NCBI RefSeq assembly: GCF_027579695.1
Contig: NC_083576.1
Span: 41,900,760-41,964,759 of the forward strand
Origin: Neoarius graeffei
Taxonomy: Eukaryota; Chordata; Actinopteri; Siluriformes; Ariidae
Direction: 5' to 3'
DNA: 64,000 nucleotides
Part shown: in pieces, positions 736 to 29,944 of the stretch
Position numbering within the stretch: position 1 is the first letter of the stretch
Layout of the letters: the number at the start of each line of letters is the position of its first letter
Translations under genes and position numbers: made by a program
The notes under the pieces: generated by a model
What the model saw: only the letters and a program-made list of their open reading frames with translations
Databases searched by the model: none
What the model was told of the DNA's origin: nothing

Positions 736-1085
736 ATAATAATGGAATAATAACCCAAATATAACATGGGGGTGCTGACCAGGCACTTGTGGAGCATTGA
801 GGATGGGGCTTGGGAAGGACAGTGCACCCTGCAATAATAACAGAAGCACTGAACTTTGTGTACGCTGCCACAAATACACCTGTGGCAAATGCACCATAGG
901 AAAGACTCACCATGGGAATGTGGAAACTACTAGATGGGACAACTCTATGCTACATTTCTGTGCTTTGTATAGCCTCCATGTGTAGTGAGTCTGCTTTTCT
1001 TAGTGTGAAATAAATGTTTATTTTCTTCCTGAAGTTATACCATCTGTAGTTTTTCCAAGCTGAAATTGTGTTTTTTGGGGCACTA

Positions 1086-1410: not shown

Positions 1411-2229
1411 ATTCCAGTCTTCTGTCCTCTGACATTGTAAGCTTGGCAGAGTAAATTGTCACTGAAATTAGGGTGTAACCTAAAACCAAATTACCTTTCA
1501 TGAATAGCAACCTCAGTGGGGGGTGGAGTGGCTGTTCACAATACAATGGAGACAGTTAGCACCTTGAGAGGAATACACAATTTTTGCAGAGAGGAGGGGG
1601 CATGCAGCAGAAGTGGGCCATGCTTATCACATATGGTAACACATTATCAACAAAGAAAGAAAAAACACAATGCCAAGGATCAGGAAAAGAACCACAGCGC
1701 TGTGATTAGTTGGGCTATCAATGACTGACAGAGCCTCGGCACGTAACTAAGCATTATAAAGTTAAAAAATATTATTTTTATTGAAAAAACAATAATGTAA
1801 TGATTTCTAAAATTTCTAAAATGATTTTACCTAACGCAATTTTCTGCTTTAATCCACATTTGCTGGTGTTGAGCATTTTTTTTTTTTTTTTGCTTCTCAA
1901 AATCATCTCATCACAGATCACTCGCTGCTGTGTGCGAGCTTCCCTGCCCCCTATTTGTTGAAAATCTTCTGTAGATGTCGGGGTTTTATATTGATTTATT
2001 ATTATTATAATTGTTAATAATTAAACGTGATAAATCTGGTTATTAGGAACAAAGGAGGGCATAGTGGGAAATGATACGGTAACTGTCTCTTGTCGGTTCA
2101 AATACGATACTGTTTTGTGATTACACTGTACCGGTTAATAAAAATAGACGAATGGCATGAACCTCTCTACTGTCTCTTATTACACTAAAGAAAGGGCCTG
2201 GCCGAGTCATTGCGTATTACTGAAAAAAA
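1411..2229. other. no gene recognised; T16 tract
   Basis: AT-rich sequence with a T homopolymer at 1876-1891. No coding exon with splice sites and no element ends were found. Confidence 0.5.
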
Positions 2230-2470
2230 GAAAGAACGAATGATACACGGATTGTGTATCATTCGTTCTTTCCATTTTTAATTGGCAATCAAAAAATGAA
2301 AAAAAAAATTGTTTTTCATTACAATTTTAGGCTCATATTAAAAAAAAGAAAAACCAGTCATTTTTTCATTTTTTTGTGTTAAAATAAAAACAAATAACAA
2401 AATAACCAGTCACTTTTTCATTTTTTGATTTTTGATTGCCATTTGAAAATAGAAAGAACGAATGATACAC
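2230..2470. mobile_element. AT-rich MITE with an extra inverted end
   Basis: Positions 2254-2470 (217 bp) begin with GTGTATCATTCGTTCTTTC and end with its reverse complement. The match continues into the interior over ~50 bp with small indels (ATGGCAATCAAAAA-type sequence). Directly upstream, 2230-2248 is another inverted copy of the same 19-bp end, separated by only 5 bases, so the left side has two ends head to head. No coding capacity. A clean target duplication was not found (GATT-like bases flank it, offset by one). Confidence 0.7.
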
Positions 2471-2527
2471 TGATTCATGTCCTCTAATAGAAAGCAAAGT
2501 TGATCTGACACAATATGTTGAAAGCGA

Positions 2528-2533
2528 CAAAAT
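2528..2533. repeat. left target-site duplication CAAAAT
   Basis: CAAAAT precedes the left end of the 7.85-kb transposon, with one extra T (2534) before the TIR proper. The same six bases follow the right end at 10387-10392. Confidence 0.6.
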
Positions 2534-2534
2534 T

Positions 2535-2768
2535 GGTCCGTGTATGTTTTGGTCATTGGATTTTCCCTTTAGGAATGGGTATTAAAAAACAAAAAACGAC
2601 TGGTTTATTTGATTTTTGTTTTGAAACACAAAAACAAAAATTGAATTACACTGCATTTTTCTTTTATTTTCATATTTTATTTCACATTACAAAAATAAAT
2701 TCACTAGTCAACAGGAACGAAAAAACGGACCAAAAATAACCATTTTTTAATATTATCGCACCGGAAGC
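2535..2768 (+). repeat. left terminal inverted repeat (234 bp)
   Basis: Matches the reverse complement of 10153-10386 almost throughout, with scattered substitutions. It is very AT-rich between two GC-containing ends. The terminal GGTCCG (2535-2540) is repeated inverted as CGGACC at 2726-2731, so each TIR could itself fold back. A frame open across both TIR copies reflects this repeat and is not a gene. Confidence 0.9.
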
Positions 2769-2790
2769 TGCCATTTAGGCTAAAGCACGA

Positions 2791-5597
2791 ATGAGAAAAA
2801 TGTCTCTGGAGCCATACTCAGAAATTATTTTAGACATGGCAAAACAAGGCCTGTCATCTTCCAAAATCTCTGCGCGCATTTCAGAGGTAAGCGGGGGCGG
2901 GAGAGGATTTTCAGCTAGAAATGTGAGAAGATTCTGTGCTGAAAACGGTGTAAACTTGATGGGATTGCCCGAGGAACATCTGGAGTTGGAGGTGGCAAAA
3001 GCCATTACCGAGGTAAGAAAACTGACCTTTTCTTCTTTGATATGTGTGTGCGTGTGCAAAGAAGCAAGTTTATTTCACATTTATCACAATAGGCTAATAG
3101 AGTAAACAGATTCCGTAAAACACTTGCAAATTCCATTACACAATCACTCCACCCCCATGCTTACTCCCAATAACTAAAACATATCGGCATGATTTTGGAA
3201 TGTTAAAATTGTGTTTGTTATTTTCTAGACGGGACCAACATTTGGCAGAAGGATGATGAAGGGATACCTCGCCATGAAAGGGGTACATGCTGCAGAGACA
3301 CGAATAGGATCAGTGCTCAGAACTATGCACCAACCTTACAATGAAGCAAGACGCCAGGTAGGCTATACTATAAATGTCAAATTCAAGATGATTCAGGTAG
3401 CGGCGTGTAACTTAACTTATCTGCTACCTCATAACCATCACAATGACAAACACATGCATTTGCTTTCAACGAAGCTGTTGAGAAATCAATTCATGGATTA
3501 GCAGATTATTATAGGCTAGCCTACGCTACGTGGTGTTATGATGTGCATATGTAAACAGAGAGGTTGGTGTAAACAAGGATCAGTGGTTAAGGGCACGTCT
3601 CTGGCGGTAGTACAATAACAAATGCTTTACTTTGAAAATAGAAACAGGTTGTGCTGTCTTCTGTTAGTGTAGTGTTTAGAATGTATTATTTTCCTAGTAG
3701 CCTACTTCTGATGAAGAGCGCCAGTCACCCACCCACATCCAGAGCCGTATACGGCTCTGCCCACATCAGGGTGCTACTGCCACCTATTGGTGTCGAAAAG
3801 TAGCAGTACTACACTAACCCACATACAAGCATCCCAACAACAGCAATAAGGCAATCTAAGGGATAGGCCAAAAGAAAGTAATTAGATTCAATTATGGGAA
3901 TAATATTGTAGGCTACTCCTGAAGTGTCAAAGGTGCCATATTATCAGCCCATTAAAAGTAGGCTTTTGTTGTTGAGGAGGATAGCATTGTAGCCTACGTT
4001 GTGTTTTGTGGAATTGTCAAATTATTTTTGTGTCTTCTTTTAGGGTGCCCGCAACCTCAACCCCATACCATACCAGGCAGACTACATGGGACAGAAGGTT
4101 CATCTGGACCAGAATGAAAAGTTAGTGATGTTTGGGGTCACACATGTTGTAGCCATTGATGGCTTCAGCAAAAAGGTTGTTGGTCATTCCACAATGCCCA
4201 TAAAAAACAACCTTGCCATCTATGAAGATGTTTTCAGGTAACAGCCTGTAATTTGTGGACATTTAAACAGTAGTCTGTCATTTATGCAAGACAGCAGATG
4301 CTGGCCAATGTATTAATATGGAATCAAGATTGTGATATGCACTATGTGAATTTGGACGTCCTACTTGAAAGGAAAGGCTGCATAGTCCCATGTAACTGAC
4401 AGACTCTTATACTGTCATTGAAATAGTATCTTACATACGCGAGTGTGACAAAATGCTGACAGCTTAACAGTTACTTTATGACTGAATCATTAAATTTTAC
4501 AGGGAATAACTGATTTGGAATGGTTAAATTTGAAAAGCTTTGCTCAAATTAAAACCCAGTTTTTCATCCAATAGGCCTGCAGTACTTGCCAATGGGATGT
4601 GGGACCAGGTGCACCTCGATCATGGAAAGGAATTTTATTTGACACTCTTCATTCAGGAGCTGCTGTCATCTCATCACTATAATCAGGAGACAAGACCTTA
4701 CATGCAAACTCCATCCACAAGGGTATAGTTCAGTAGTTTCTATGGTGGCTTCACTAACACACACCGTCTATGCCTGTTGGAGCTATTTATTTGTTAATAT
4801 TTAGTGTTGTTTAGTATTTAGATACTATAGTTTGTTTCAGCAGCATGCTGTCTTCTTTTTTCAGAATTGCTATGCTTTCCAACTTTTATGATAAGCAGAA
4901 CACTTTTCTAGCAAATCTGCAGATTTGGTGGAGTTACTGGGAATTCTGCAAAATGGACTGTAAAATACATTCTTTCATTTGACCATTGGAATAAATTAAT
5001 AACACGTTTTTGCCTCACATTCAGAATCACATAGTTGAACGAATCTGGCCGGAGATCAATAATCGTGTCAACTACCCCCTGAAGACAGCCCTTCTGCAGT
5101 TGGTGGACCAGGAAGTACTAGACATGGATGACAGCCTTGTCCGATACTGTGTGTCCTGCCTGACTGGTCAGCTGTGCCAGATTGGTCTTACAAGAGTGGT
5201 AGAGTCTTGGAATGCTCATCGAATTCCAGGTGAAATAATCAGTATTGCAAATATTAAAATAATTACAATAGACACACATCAGTCTCAAGGTCAACAGTAT
5301 GTTCTTTATTTTACAGGTAAAGGTATACCAAACGACTTGGCTGGCAGTGGGTGTCCCAAAAAAATCCCACAGGAGCTGTTGCCTCACTCAGTTGAAGCAG
5401 CAGAACTCTACAGACAACAGCTGGGATCCTCACTGACACCACAATCTACCTTTGGAGTAGATCCATTTTTAACAGAACAAGAAAAAGTACTGGCTGAAGT
5501 CAGTTTGCAGACAAATATCCTGACATTTCTGAACTGCTCTCTAGAGCAGTCAACAATGATTTTGCACCATACAAAGAGGCACTTCTCTTTCTTATAG
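2791..5597 (+). CDS. integrase-core (DDE) transposase, six exons, intact 392 aa
   Basis: Six exons join without stop or frameshift: 2791-3012, 3229-3357, 4044-4237, 4575-4722, 5025-5229 and 5317-5597 (1179 nt with stop). Every intron is GT-AG and all phases agree. Residues ~1-60 look like a helix-turn-helix DNA-binding region. The rest is an rve-type integrase core: D139 in HLDQNEK, followed by [11 protein letters not shown]197 in [10 protein letters not shown]236 in [10 protein letters not shown]. The D-E spacing is 38 residues, close to the 35 of retroviral and IS3 integrases. I recognise the core as the integrase-like domain of multi-copy fish and invertebrate proteins; it probably cuts and joins the element's ends in the nucleus. 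The start ATG is the first after the TIR; a second in-frame ATG is three codons on. An AATAAA lies at 5743-5748. The intact frame suggests recent or preserved function; expression is unknown. Confidence 0.85.
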
Positions 5598-6174
5598 CCA
5601 CAACTCGGCACAATGTGTAAACATACAATTTGTTGTTAAAACTTGACGAATGTAAATGAGTAGAACTTGTGGCAGTGGGCATTTGAACAATTTTTCATCA
5701 TTAAAAAAAAACAAAACTCAATTACCTGCCTGTTTTTGAGTAAATAAATGAATATTATTCCTCTTCAAAAAGAGACCTTAGCACAGAAAAAGCCTCTGAC
5801 AGGCCATTGACTTCAAACATGCTGTTTCCTTCAACACTTCCCCTACATTTCGCACAGGTGTCTGAGTGCTCCAGCCACTGCTCCATGCAAGTTTTGCAGC
5901 CAATGATGTTTTGGCAACACTGTGTGAAGAGCGGCTCTGTCATGAACTCTAAAACACAAAATGAGAAAAACTAATCAATTTCTGCAAGTGTGTCCCCAGT
6001 AAAATGTTCTTAGTGTATTGGATGAGCGTTATGTTACACAACATTGTTAATTATAAAATTATGTTGTTAATTATAAAAATGTAAAAAAAAAAGTGGCTGG
6101 CACGCAGCTGACCTTAGTTAGATAATGTAAAAAAAGAGTGTTTATTTGTAAATCTTAAATTGTGGCACACACTA

Positions 6175-7777
6175 CAGTGGGGCAAAAAAGTATTTAGTCA
6201 GCCACCAATTGTGCAAGTTCTCCCACTTAAAAAGATGAGAGAGGCCTGTAATTTTCATCATATGTACACTTCAACTATGAGAGACAGAATGGGGGGAAAG
6301 AATCCAGGAAATCACATTGTAGGATTTTTAATGAATTAATTGGTAAATTCCTCGGTAAAATAAGTATTTGGTCACCTACAAACAAGCAAGATTTCTGGCT
6401 CTCACAGACCTGTAACAACTTCTTTAAGAGGCTCCTCTGTCCTCCACTCATTACCTGTATTAATGGCACCTGTTTGAACTCATCAGTATAAAAGACACCT
6501 GTCCACAACCTCAAACAGTCACACTCCAAACTCCACTATGGCCAAGACCAAAGAGCTGTCAAAGGACACCAGAAACAAAATTGTAGACCTGCACCAGGCT
6601 GGGAAGACTGAATCTGCAATAGGTAAGCAGCTTGGTGTGAAGAAATCAACAGTGGGAGCAATTATTAGAAAATGGAAGACATACAAGACCACTGATGATC
6701 TCCCTCGATATGGGGCTCCACGCAAGATCTCACCCCGTGGGGTCAAAATGATCACAAGAATGGTGAGCAAAAATCCCAGAACCACACGGGGGGACCTAGT
6801 GAATGACCTGCAGAGAGCTGGGACCAAAGTAACAAAGGCTACCATCAGTAACACACTACGCCGCCAGAGACTCAAATCCTGCAGTGCCAGACGTGTCCCC
6901 CTGCTTAAGCCAGTACATGTCCAGGCCCGTCTGAAGTTTGCTAGAGAGCATTTGGATGATCCAGAAGAGGATTGGGAGAATGTCATATGGTCAGATGAAA
7001 CCAAAATAGAACTTTTTGGTAAAAACTCAACTTGTCGTGTTTGGAGGAGAAAGAATGCTGAGTTGCATCCAAAGAACACCATACCTACTGTGAAGCATGG
7101 GGGTGGAAACATCATGCTTCGGGGCTGTTTTTCTGCAAAGGGACCAGGACGACTGATCCGTGTAAAGGAAAGAATGAATGGGGCCATGTATCATGAGATT
7201 TTGAGTGAAAACCTCCTTCCATCAGCAAGGGCATTGAAGATGAAACGTGGCTGGGTCTTTCAGCATGACAATGATCCCAAACACACCACCCGGGCAACGA
7301 AGGAGTGGCTTTGTAAGAAGCATTTCAAGGTCCTGGAGTGGCCTAGCCAGTCTCCAGATCTCAACCCCATAGAAAATCTTTGGAGGGAGTTGAAAGTCCG
7401 TGTTGCCCAGCGACAGCCCCAAAACATCACTGCTCTAGAGGAGATCTGCATGGAGGAATGGGCCAAAATACCAGCAACAGTGTGTGAAAACCTTGTGAAG
7501 ACTTACAGAAAACATTTGACCTCTGTCATTTCCAGCAAAGGGTATATAACAAAGTATTGAGATGAACTTTTGTTATTGACCAAATACTTATTTTCCACCA
7601 TCATTTGCAAATAAATTCTTTAAAAATCAGACAATGTGATTTTCTGGATTTTTTTTTTCTCATTTTGTCTCTCATAGTTGAGGTATACCTATGATGAAAA
7701 TTACAGGCCTCTCTCATCTTTTTAAGTGGTAGAACTTGCACAATTGGTGACTGACTAAATACTTTTTTGCCCCACTG
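6175..7777 (+). mobile_element. Tc1-like transposon, full length
   Basis: A 1603-bp element starting CAGTGGGGCAAAAAAGTATT and ending with its near reverse complement. TA lies on both sides (6173-6174 and 7778-7779). The terminal repeats are long: ~100 bases match between 6175-6290 and 7660-7777. It inserted into the last intron of the RING gene, 25 bp past the 5' splice site, so it did not break an exon. A truncated sister copy lies at 28198-29378. Confidence 0.92.
6538..7560 (+). CDS. Tc1 transposase, open 340 aa
   Basis: Single uninterrupted frame of 340 codons, the usual length of Tc1 transposases. The N-terminal half carries two helix-turn-helix regions (residues ~1-60, [17 protein letters not shown]; ~70-125). 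The DDE domain shows [13 protein letters not shown] (first D), [11 protein letters not shown] (second D) and [11 protein letters not shown] (E) with DD34E-type spacing. The product would bind the TIRs and perform cut-and-paste at TA sites. One oddity: the conserved stretch that reads [10 protein letters not shown] in the sister copy is [10 protein letters not shown] here, a W-to-R change that may impair the enzyme. The frame is otherwise intact and may be recently active. Confidence 0.9.
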
Positions 7778-7809
7778 TATATAGAATAGATCCATTGGGT
7801 ACTTAAGCA

Positions 7810-9954
7810 AATAACACAGGAGAACCCCTGCTTAATGGTTTGTAGCTGTGAACGAGTCAGGGTCACTTTTTGAGCTGCAGCCAGACTGGTGAGCTCCCTG
7901 ATTGTTGAAGTGACATCCGGGAGACTCTGAGATGCAAAGACTAGGTCTTCGATTTTCTCTGTGACCTCTGCAATGCTTCCAACATCTTCATCTTTTCAGC
8001 TGTTACACAGAGGATAAAATGAAACACCCAGGTTAGATATGTACTGGATGTGGTGAGCAGGATTGGTGGTGGTGGGGTTGAAGCTTAACCTTTGGTTTGA
8101 AGGTTTAGAAAAGAGACTAAAAAATAATAAGTATTTGGTTTATAAAAGTAGCTTTGCCAGGTCAGATCTGCAATTTAGGAAATGTATTTATTAGGAAAAA
8201 TACACAAAACAGTAAAATTGGTAAGGGGTGAAAAATTCCATTCCTGAATATGAGGTCGATAGGCTTTCATACTTTAAGGGGGAGTTGGTTCCTTAGTGGC
8301 AGACAGGGTATTAGGGAATGCTAACCCTATGTATGGTGTAGCCTATACAGAGGTGGCAATGGCAAAATTGTCTGAAAAGTCATGTAATGATAAGTCTAAC
8401 AGAAAAAAAACAAAGCAACAAAAAAGGAACACATTTCAGTGTAAATGAGATGACCTTACCTCATTCTCCTTCTTTTGGTGCCCTGCAGCTCTCTAAAGTC
8501 CTTTTCTGGAACAGCAAGAACCTTTCTTGAGTTTTGTTTCCAGTAAGACAACCCTTGGAGTAGGAGTGGAAACCAGGAAAAAACATTTCAACTGAAGTGG
8601 TTCACTCATTCGTAATCAGAAGCATATACTCATGACAGAGAAACACAATTTTTTGTATTTATGTTACCCACCTGTTGTTCCCTCTGACTCCACAATGGCG
8701 TTGCCCTGTGCATCAGTCAATATTAAAGGCTCATGACTTCCAATGGCATCCTGTACTTTTGTGGTAATCCCCCGAAGAGAAGCCTCGCACTCTAAAAACC
8801 TCACCACCACCATTCTGCTAGGATTCAGCTTCCCACCAACCACCTCAGCAAGGAACACTGACCTGGAAGAATATCTTTTTTTCTCACTGGAGGAACAGCA
8901 CAAGAGGGCCAAGCAGGGACAAATGACAAGTAACAGACGATCCAATGAAGATTTAGGGGAAACACAGGGTTTAAATACACAGGGAGAAGAGGGGTAATCA
9001 AAACAGGTGAGACACACAGAGGGGAGACACAGACTTCAAAATAAAACACAAACCAAATTCCCACTAAAGGAACATGCCAGACCCCATGACAAGACAGGGA
9101 ATGACATCACACAAGACACGAACGGGAGACACATGAACACAAACCATGACACCTAGCAATGCTTAATGGTCTTATGTAAGATATTGTGGAGTAAATATTA
9201 ATATTGTGTATAGCAAATATTGTGGAGTAACAATTTCAATATTTGCTATGAAATGTATTGGTAGAAGTATAGAAGCAAATTAAAATGCTCAGTAGCCTAC
9301 TTAAATAAAATTATTTAGCCTAGTTGACTACCTTCCACTACTTTGTATATCAACAATAACTAGATAATAGAGTCTACAAACGACTCAAAGAATGGCTAAT
9401 GGTGCTTGTGTGCAACAAAATCTGTTATATACAGTATGTTATTTATGGTTTCATACGTAACTTAATGCTACTTTTGAAATAATTTGGAAGTGGCTCTGGG
9501 GAGGGCTGAGGCACCCCGCAATGAGCCACTGGTGACTGTACTCGAAGGTCGTGTGAAGGCAAAGCGTTGCCCCGTTGTGGTTGACCCTGAGGCGACATCG
9601 TCCTCGCCGTGTACTTCATAATGCCCCCTTGGGCTCAGGTCGAATGAGCTGAATGCGCCAGATATCTCTCCAGCAAATATAGCCACGTTGGAGTCATCTG
9701 TTAGATACAGACTGTGACTTGAGACCTAAGAAATACACAAGTCAATTAACATTAACCAGCTAAGCCTAATATTAGTGTTATTATAGCGTTTTAAAAACGT
9801 GATCTATTGTTACTATGAGGATAGTCCTCCAAACTAACTGTCCAAATTACATTAATTCTAAATTTGAAGTAAAAAAAAAAAAAACTTGAGCTAGCATGAA
9901 GCACACAGTAAGTTAGGCTAGTAGCCTACGTTAGCTCCGTTTTTTTTTACCTAC
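7810..9954. other. introns of the RING gene
   Basis: Between the RING exons lie AT-rich introns. Positions ~8870-9150, within the intron between exons 3 and 2, are more GC-balanced and look like an inserted repeat end (a run such as 'gacacacagaggggagacac'). I could not assign it to a family. Confidence 0.4.
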
Positions 9955-10152
9955 CTGAAAGATCCGACTTAATTTTTCGGTAGTCATGTCCTCATCGCGA
10001 AGACAAACTCTCTTGTCCTTTCTGAACACAACGTACTGGTCCATGTTCCTTCTTGAAGTCTCTGTGGCTGCCGTCATCGTCATGAGGCTATCACTCTCCT
10101 TCAGTCCTGGATGATGCGCTTTTCTTCTACTGTCTATGATGGGCTCTTACTG

Positions 10153-10386
10153 GCTTCTGGTGCGATAATATTAAAAAATGGTTATTTTTGGTCCGTTTTT
10201 TCGTTCCTGTTGACTAGTGAATTTATTTTTGTAATGTGAAATAAAACATGAAAATAAAAGAAAAATGCAGTGTAATTCAATTTTTGTTTTTGTGTTTCAA
10301 AACGAAAATCAAATAAACCAGTCATTTTTTGTTTTTTAATACCCATTCCTAAAGGGAAAATCCAATGACCAAAACATACACGGACC
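10153..10386 (-). repeat. right terminal inverted repeat (234 bp)
   Basis: Reverse complement of the left TIR (2535-2768), ending CATACACGGACC at 10386. CAAAAT follows at 10387-10392 and matches the six bases at the left flank. Confidence 0.9.
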
Positions 10387-10969
10387 CAAAATGAATGCCA
10401 TGTTGTTATTGTTATCATTATTTATTATTACTATCAGTGGTCGAGTTGTAAAATCAAACCGGGGGGGATGGTGAAATTTTTAGTCGCGTGTCGACCCATC
10501 GGTCGGTCCGTCGGTGGGAAACTGGTTTGCTTTTAGGAGGGTTTGCATACAACGTAGGTCTGTGGACCTTGTTCATTTACCAGACATACAGTATTTTGTG
10601 CTGATAAAGTGTGTAGTACACACTGTGTACCCTTTTTATTGTTGTAAAAAAAAACATAATACACTGGTATTTTACTGTAAAACATGCACAGTGTGGATGT
10701 CGTGTCATATTTAGTCAGTCTCCTGGCTGACATACCTACCACATTCTCCATATTAGGGTGAAATGCAGATGACAAATTTGAAGTGCAACTTCATAGTCAT
10801 GGTAGGCTCCTTTTAAATCATTTGGTAAATAATTTATTAAAACCTCAGCAGGCAATGTAAATGAACAACTGAATCTTTTCATATCAAGTCAATAGAATTT
10901 TTATTCAAAGCTGAACATTGGGAACATTGAATTAAATACAGAGGTAGGTAGGTAACCAATAAGCTAAAA

Positions 10970-28197: not shown

Positions 28198-29378
28198 GAA
28201 CTGGCTGGGAAGACTGAATCTGCAATAGGTAAGCAGCTTGGTGTGAAGAAATCAACTGTGGGAGCAATTATTAGAAAATGGAAGACATACAAGACCACTG
28301 ATAGTCTCCCTCGATCTGGGGCTCCACACAAGAGCTCACCCCATGGGGTCAAAATGATCACAAGAATGGTGAGCAAAAATCCCAGAACCACACGGGGGGA
28401 CCTAGTGAATGACCTGCAGAGAGCTGGGACCAAAGTAACAAAGGCTACCATCAGTAACACACTATGCCGCCAGGGACTCAAATCCTGCAGTGCCAGACGT
28501 GTCCCCCTGCTTAAGCCAGTACATGTCCAGGCCCGTTTGAAGTTTGCTAGAGAGCATTTGGATGATCCAGAAGAGGATTGGGAGAATGTCATATGGTCAG
28601 ATGAAACCAAAATAGAACTTTTTGGTAAAAACTCAACTTGTTGTGTTTGGAGGAGAAAGAATGCCGAGTTGCATCCAAAGAACACCATACCTACTGTGAA
28701 GCATGGGGGTGGAAACATCATGCTTTGGGGCTGTTTTTCTGCAAAGGGACCAGGATGACTGATCCGTGTAAAGGAAAGAATGAATGGGGCCATATATCGT
28801 GAGATTTTGAGTGAAAACCTCCTTCCATCAGCAAGGGCATTGAAGATGAAACGTGGCTGGGTCTTTCAGCATGACAATGATCCCAAACACACCGCCCGGG
28901 CAACAAAGGAGTGGCTTCATAAGAAGCATTTCAAGGTCCTGGAGTGGCCTAGCCAGTCTCCAGATCTCAACCCCGTAGAAAATCTTTGGAGGGAGTTGAA
29001 AGTCTGTGTTGCCCAGCAACAGCCCCAAAACATCACTGCTCTAGAGGAGATCTGCATGGAGGAATGGGCCAAAATACCAGCAACAGTGTGTGAAAACCTT
29101 TTGAAGACTTACAGAAAACGTTTGACCTCTGTCATTGCCAACAAAAGGTATATAACAAAGTATTGAGATGAACTTTTGTTATTGACCAAATACTTATTTT
29201 CCACCATAATTTGCAAATAAATTCTTTAAAAATCAATGTGATTTTCTGGATTTTTTTTCTCATTTTGTCTCTCATAGTTGAGGTATACCTATGATGAAAA
29301 TTACAGACCTCTCTCATCTTTTTAAGTGGAAGAACTTGCACAATTGGTGACTGACTAAATACTTTTTTGCCCCACTGT
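28198..29378 (+). mobile_element. 5'-truncated Tc1-like copy
   Basis: Same family as 6175-7777. It begins abruptly inside the transposase (equivalent to ~6598) and runs to the right TIR, ending CCCCACTG at 29378. The left TIR and ~420 bp are absent, so this copy cannot be mobilised normally. Confidence 0.9.
28200..29166 (+). pseudogene. Tc1 transposase, N-truncated with a stop
   Basis: Frame equivalent to residues ~20-340 of the 6538-7560 transposase. A TGA at 28756-28758 replaces CGA (R), a CpG-type change. All three acidic landmarks remain: [23 protein letters not shown] and [11 protein letters not shown]. It keeps [10 protein letters not shown], unlike the R-bearing copy at 6.2 kb. Confidence 0.9.
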
Positions 29379-29944
29379 ACAACACTGGTCCTCAAAAACA
29401 TTACACAAACTCTTCCTTTTTTGCTAACAGCCAATCTAGAGCTTCCCTTCATATATTATTTCAAACACAAATTTCACTTCTACTTACTGTTTCATCTACC
29501 CTAACTCAACACTAATTCAAACAATGAAACGCACATTCTTCTCCAATTAAGTAAATCCTAGTAATAAGTACATAAAAACAGAAACACAACTCTGCTAAGA
29601 AAATACTTGACCTTGGGGACTAGATGGACACACAAAGAGGCCTGTGCATGAGCCCAAATGTTTACACCTATAGATTCATAACTTTTTTCTTTTTATGAAC
29701 TCCTTCCTTGCACAATGGTCTAAAACATGTACATCAGTATTCAAAATTACTAAGCAAACAAGGCAGAGAAAACAAAAACCCTTCATGACTTCTCCACACT
29801 CCATTACCATCCTGATTAGCTCCTCTCTGTACCCATACATTTTTCTCATAAGGAGATACTAGTGTATAGATGATTGACCAAATCATTCAAAGTAGTTGCA
29901 AGTTCCACTGATGCTAAAGATGCCATCACAGGGACTTGAAAGAA
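29379..29944. other. no gene recognised
   Basis: AT-rich unassigned sequence between a Tc1 end and a SINE-like repeat. No exon or element end was seen. Confidence 0.5.

Follow-up and report, generated by a model that had tools for sequence, protein, structure and literature searches.

An integrase-type transposon of Neoarius graeffei and the RING-finger gene convergent with its transposase

In the genome of the siluriform fish Neoarius graeffei, an integrase-type transposase gene and a gene for a RING-finger protein lie between long terminal inverted repeats (TIRs), and the locus raises the question of whether the RING gene is a working part of a transposon or a passenger that was captured from the host. 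The window, by which we mean the whole stretch of 64,000 nucleotides that was analysed, corresponds to G000:C8:41900760-41964759 in a genome of 2.34 Gb and 38 contigs. The original prediction, made from the letters of this stretch, described a 7.85-kb transposon with both genes and put the pair forward as an under-described system. It also named two signs of a one-off capture, namely copies with the same TIRs but no RING gene, and RING homologues lying mostly outside such pairs.

The element in the window and its two genes

The predicted inverted ends were found, as two arms of 234 nt that are 98% complementary, far above chance (Table 1). The predicted 6-bp target-site duplication (TSD) is likewise present on both sides, although the left copy is separated from the element by one extra base. 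The size has to be revised: 1607 of the 7852 bp belong to a nested Tc1/mariner element, and the element proper is therefore only ~6.25 kb long. The nested element has arms at 6173-6311 and 7641-7779, and its frame has both the Sleeping Beauty-type helix-turn-helix and the DDE_3 domain (HTH_SB, E 2.5e-24; DDE_3, E 7.2e-14). Its site is empty in seven of the eight other copies of the family described below, and a deletion spans the site in the eighth (C6). A relative at 28203-29379 of the window is 5′-shortened and 97% identical to 6597-7779. Scanning the window for Rfam families and tRNA genes gave no matches.

Table 1. Features of the element, numbered from the first letter of the window
Feature	Position	Strand	Details
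Left 6-bp TSD	2528..2533	.	CAAAAT; one additional T at 2534 ahead of the element
Left TIR	2535..2768	+	begins GGTCCGTGTATG; 22 genome matches
Integrase-type transposase gene	2791..5597	+	exons 2791-3012, 3229-3357, 4044-4237, 4575-4722, 5025-5229, 5317-5597
RING gene	5755..10083	-	exons 10083-9955, 9725-9472, 8862-8672, 8553-8460, 7999-7803, 5948-5755
Nested Tc1/mariner element, foreign to the family	6173..7779	+	within RING intron 5; 340-aa transposase frame 6538-7560
Right TIR	10153..10386	-	terminates in CATACACGGACC
Right 6-bp TSD	10387..10392	.	CAAAAT

The prediction of two convergent six-exon genes was borne out in layout and exon number, and all inner splice sites, which were checked in both genes, are GT-AG. 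Both genes are broken in the window copy, however, and an intact autonomous copy at this position was rejected. The transposase reads as 392 aa, with a frameshift in exon 6, its last exon, at which all eight other copies differ. Its product carries the expected DDE integrase core, matching rva_4 (PF24764) at E 3.6e-14 with a score above the cut-off; motif reading assigns D139, D197 and E236 as the catalytic residues, with spacers of 57 and 38 residues. At E values up to 1, the only Pfam matches of the transposase are rva_4, HTH_21 and rve, and a zinc finger is not among them. Relatives of the transposase and RING proteins were not found in scans of viral contigs, and one genome-contig scan and one plasmid search likewise returned none.

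The other product ends in a C8 RING-type finger, as had been read from the sequence. The domain lies in the last ~75 residues and is coded by the end of exon 5 together with exon 6; eight cysteines in RING order, read directly from the translation, would provide its eight metal ligands. The match to zf-RING_2 is significant (E 5.4e-5), yet at 23.8 bits it stays under the curated Pfam cut-off of 27.3. The closest solved relatives are the RING of TRIM39 (best, E 3.9e-4), PCGF5 and RNF8. The claimed agreement of exon phases holds only if RING exon 5 begins at 7999; a start at 7991 breaks the phase and was rejected. In the window copy this exon contains a premature stop, absent from seven of the eight other copies and present in that at C18:5.40, and its donor is altered, all seven assessable copies differing there. 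A test for internal duplication in the RING protein gave nothing significant. The coding ends of the two genes are 157 bp apart in the window.

Copies of the family and their insertion sites

The 22 matches to the TIR in the genome resolve into nine paired copies, the window included, and three lone ends. The paired copies are C8:41.9 (window), C5, C3, C8:63.4 (C8b), C16, C6, C1, C18:4.49 (C18a) and C18:5.40 Mb (C18b). Both genes occur in the same convergent layout between the TIRs in all nine; copies with paired TIRs but without the RING gene, the first of the two signs of capture, did not occur in the Neoarius graeffei genome. Some copies have gaps: C6 is without transposase exon 4, C18b is without RING exon 4, and inserts interrupt several.

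The nine copies differ pairwise by 1.08-1.74% (0.52-1.09% when CpG sites are left out). Each copy has 19-44 private sites, and 44 two-state sites are shared, a pattern close to that of a star-like burst. Complete transposase frames of 400 aa are present in two of the nine, intact RING frames in none (that of C1 has a stop at residue 313), and no copy has both genes intact. Within the family, the dN/dS-like ratio is 0.82 for the transposase (17 synonymous, 47 non-synonymous) and 0.84 for the RING gene (18 synonymous, 51 non-synonymous), from counts that omit parts of two exons. Values of about 0.8 in both genes indicate decay after insertion, as dead copies should show. For the RING gene, whose dN/dS had been proposed as a check, the signal of selection comes solely from the comparison between families described in the next section.

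The termini of the element are GG..CC (GGTCC..GGACC) and are flush with the TSD in C5, C3 and C18b. In these three of the nine paired copies the TSD is an exact 6 bp, the length described for IS3EU elements (GTGTAT, GTCCGG and GAAAAA, respectively), and it is also exact in a short derivative on C10. It agrees at five of six positions in C6 and C18a and is offset by one base in the window copy; reading the flanks of all nine paired copies gave no clear TSD in C1, C8b and C16. The C10 derivative (L035:6001-6073), one of the three lone ends, is 73 bp long and internally deleted with both ends kept, and its TSD, GTCCGG, has the same letters as that of C3.

Six of the nine copies (window, C5, C8b, C6, C18b and C16) are inserted in one host repeat of ~5 kb, in one shared orientation relative to it and at several different positions. 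All six insertions fall inside a MITE-like zone of 280 bp (window 2254-2533) that is AT-rich and palindromic and within which C5, C6, C18b and the window copy have differing TSDs; unoccupied sequence for the C5, C6 and C18b sites is visible in the window's copy of the repeat. The zone is an apparent insertion hot spot. Its ends, of the type GTGTATC..GATACAC, are similar to the terminal motif of the element, so insertion may be drawn to related sequence. The MITE-like palindrome at window 2224-2480 has the ends CGAATGATACAC, resembling the GTGTAT/ATACAC end motif of the element. In C8b (L024, C8:63.36 Mb) the left flank corresponds to site 2259 and the right flank to site 2533 of the host repeat and there is no TSD; this copy is likely a recombinant, or a deletion between two insertions. 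The host repeat also contains, at window 780-960, a fragment reading CVRCHKYTCGKC, which may resemble the piggyBac C-terminal cysteine-rich domain.

The same pair in more distant families

Searches of the genome with the two proteins gave at least 155 matches for RING (150 of 217 candidates scored) and at least 143 for the transposase (105 of 376 candidates scored). The nine own copies and 53 RING hits of only ~30 aa were left out before clustering. Among the matches listed, 62 RING hits then formed 25 loci and 82 transposase hits also formed 25, all locus counts being lower bounds. The 53 short hits are to RING exon 4, mostly at 63% identity and often in a 58-aa frame; five lie near a listed transposase, and they may belong to a high-copy derivative of family D (see below).

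At 22 of the 25 listed distant transposase loci a RING locus lies within 15 kb, and all 22 pairs are convergent. The gap between the matched stretches is 0.37-0.81 kb in 19 of these pairs and 1.2, 1.4 and 4.8 kb in the remaining three. Among the matches listed, three of 25 transposase loci, all fragments (C21:51.74, C4:34.96 and C5:50.49), and three of 25 RING loci (C16:32.95, C4:113.10 and C5:111.06) are partnerless; the RING locus at C16:32.95 Mb and a transposase 5.8 kb from it share one strand. Among these listed loci, RING homologues do not lie mostly outside pairs. Given that the convergent pair recurs at 22 of the 25 distant transposase loci listed, a one-off capture was rejected. Because the same arrangement recurs in more distant families, the RING partner looks like a working part and not a chance passenger.

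The paired loci were grouped by shared hit pattern, with no tree, into A (3), B (6), C (5), D (6) and E (2), and the members of a group are not independent. The distant pairs would represent about five further families, or about six with that of the window. Their proteins are 27-58% (RING) and 37-76% (transposase) identical to those of the window family per matched stretch, group E being the most distant (RING 27%, transposase 40-45%). From its longer open frames, lineage E seems to be without several introns. The lineage E loci G000:C16:32956116-32957926 and C5:41393707-41402958 have long open frames and keep the convergent pair.

Three of the 22 loci (C2, C1:17.77 and C4:45.97), which were picked on the RING hit alone, ahead of the transposase search result, were read, and in each of them a relative of the transposase lies on the strand opposite to RING. 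The blocks that encode it mostly stop close to the residues where the exons of the window family stop. The exact 10-mer GGTCCGTGTA, with which the window TIR starts, lies ~300 bp (family A, C2) or ~350 bp (family B, C1:17.77) before transposase exon 1, set against a chance expectation of 2.7e-4 per 500 bp by a simple base-composition estimate. In family C neither the end motif nor exon 1 was found. In the family-A element on C2 the terminal motif is present on the transposase side only, with no matching arm in the RING-side DNA examined. Ends of 234 bp and 6-bp TSDs are established for the window's own family alone.

Comparison of codons between families covered the transposase in families A-C and the RING gene in family A only, where loci L066-L069 are copies of one family. 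The transposase (319-390 codons) has an amino acid identity of 0.55-0.58, with 0.75-0.78 of second and 0.41-0.44 of third codon positions identical. For the RING gene (99-163 codons) the corresponding values are 0.48-0.54, 0.70-0.78 and 0.36-0.42, so that the two proteins are at similar amino acid distances between families; the family-A exon-6 tail of the RING gene is weaker (43 codons: amino acids 0.37, second positions 0.56, third 0.40). As third positions are near saturation and second positions are conserved, both genes must have been kept protein-coding while the families diverged. This pattern shows, where DNA was compared, the signature of purifying selection on both.

Known systems and the role of the RING partner

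Taken together, we consider it likely that the element is a decayed cut-and-paste transposon of an integrase-type lineage whose standard equipment is a convergent pair of DDE transposase and RING genes, the RING protein serving as an accessory factor. In such a mechanism the transposase would bind the long ends, cut at GG/CC and join the cut ends to positions 6 bp apart on the two strands of the target. The RING protein, most likely a ubiquitin E3, would act in trans on either the transposase complex or, where the element is excised or inserted, host factors of repair or chromatin; transposition would thereby be completed and tolerated.

By description, the nearest lineage is IS3EU/GingerRoot. 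IS3EU shares the integrase-type DDE core, the 6-bp TSD and the TIRs, and the element may work like it. It differs in its TA..TA ends (PMC10045372), whereas those of the window family are GG..CC, with the start motif GGTCCGTGTA also in families A and B. Because complete IS3EU elements always have TA..TA ends according to this paper, the element was not filed as IS3EU. GingerRoot is described with a 6-bp TSD and an integrase-related transposase, but with ends that are mostly TA..TA and occasionally TG..CA (PMC10045372), in contrast to GG..CC here. TET-bearing fungal IS3EU elements carry a gene oriented opposite to the transposase that codes for an alpha-kinase (PMC12730594), where the window family has a RING gene.

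The families described here may already be in Repbase. That the element is no more than one of the fish IS3EU families which Repbase has already named is a somewhat doubtful reading: its integrase core would fit, as would its long TIRs and a TSD of 6 bp, and Repbase held 45 IS3EU families, 17 of them autonomous, in May 2022 (PMC10045372), but the GG..CC ends depart from those of complete families, and the word RING is absent from the main texts of PMC10045372, PMC12730594 and PMC9587614. Only tentatively, and as a possibility on the unlikely side, might the families form a separate superfamily with GGTCCGTGTA..TACACGGACC ends and 6-bp TSDs, which would work as an obligate two-component system of a DDE transposase and a dedicated RING ubiquitin ligase that it needs (for example in disassembly of the strand-transfer complex or recruitment of repair), and in which integration would be directed toward AT-rich palindromic remnants of related elements.

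Several other systems resemble the pair in part. Ginger1 has TIRs of ~40-270 bp and an integrase-type transposase tied to the ubiquitin/SUMO pathway through OTU or Ulp1, but its protease domain is fused in cis and its ends are TGTNR (PMC2836005), whereas here the ligase-like gene is separate. The TSDs of Ginger1 are 4 bp of CCGG/CCGT type and those of Ginger2 are 4-5 bp, as against 6 bp here. RING fingers also occur in the RAG1/RAG2-like and Chapaev systems, and RAGL elements have two convergent genes (PMC7204232); in RAG1 and Chapaev, however, the RING is inside the transposase protein, which is unrelated to that of the window family (PMC4411706). The same paper stated in 2015 that no other known transposable element encoded a RING finger. 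The MULE element Ghost of the black cherry aphid has a separate 420-bp RING zinc finger ORF beside its transposase ORF; the transposase differs in being of MULE type, and a single element is described, with no TIRs or TSDs identified (PMC6446971). Among the titles and abstract openings listed in the literature survey, none describes a RING gene for an element of IS3EU, GingerRoot or Ginger type. In Mutator MuDR (mudrA/mudrB), mudrB is the second gene. MuDR shares long TIRs and, in many members, an antisense second part (PMC6446971), but differs in having an unrelated transposase and second protein and a TSD of 9-10 bp.

Other roles for the RING protein were weighed against that of an accessory factor in transposition. 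It is unlikely, in our view, that it serves counter-defence and not the transposition reaction, by marking for degradation those host proteins that silence or restrict the element. Other transposons do carry ubiquitin-pathway domains, such as OTU and Ulp1 in Ginger1 (PMC2836005), and for fungal transposons, IS3EU among them, TET/JBP genes have been proposed to help in escaping methylation-based silencing (PMC12730594); nothing points to a substrate, however, and a partner in the reaction would account just as well for two convergent genes kept so close together. Quite improbable is a RING protein that limits the transposase through turnover and so lets the element regulate its own copy number. 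The RING of RAG1 has ubiquitin-ligase activity, with autoubiquitylation named in a cited title (PMC4411706), and the convergent genes, whose 3′ ends are near each other (157 bp between the coding ends in the window), could be co-expressed, but on general reasoning strong self-limitation profits selfish elements little. That the RING gene is a passive passenger, acquired in a single capture from the host, is a very improbable reading. In its favour, captured cargo genes are common in transposons, RING frames are broken in all nine copies while two transposase frames are open, and change among these copies is near neutral. Cargo of this kind would be expected to decay, however, and in the Neoarius graeffei genome the reading is contradicted by the convergent pair at 22 of the 25 distant transposase loci listed and by the near-saturated third and conserved second codon positions of the RING gene against family A.

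What these comparisons establish is a mobile element that has long TIRs and 6-bp TSDs and in which a convergent transposase–RING pair recurs. Cut-and-paste transposition by the DDE enzyme is inferred, as is a RING E3 that would act in trans on the transposase, on repair or on chromatin. The proposal of an under-described integrase–RING system appears partly supported by these comparisons. The precedents of Ginger1, RAG1/Chapaev and the MULE Ghost element place ubiquitin-pathway functions near transposition, and a conserved RING gene that accompanies an integrase-type transposase would add a counterpart on the ligase side. The pair allows the direct question of whether a transposon needs its own E3, and it may bear on the entry of RING fingers into recombinases such as RAG1.
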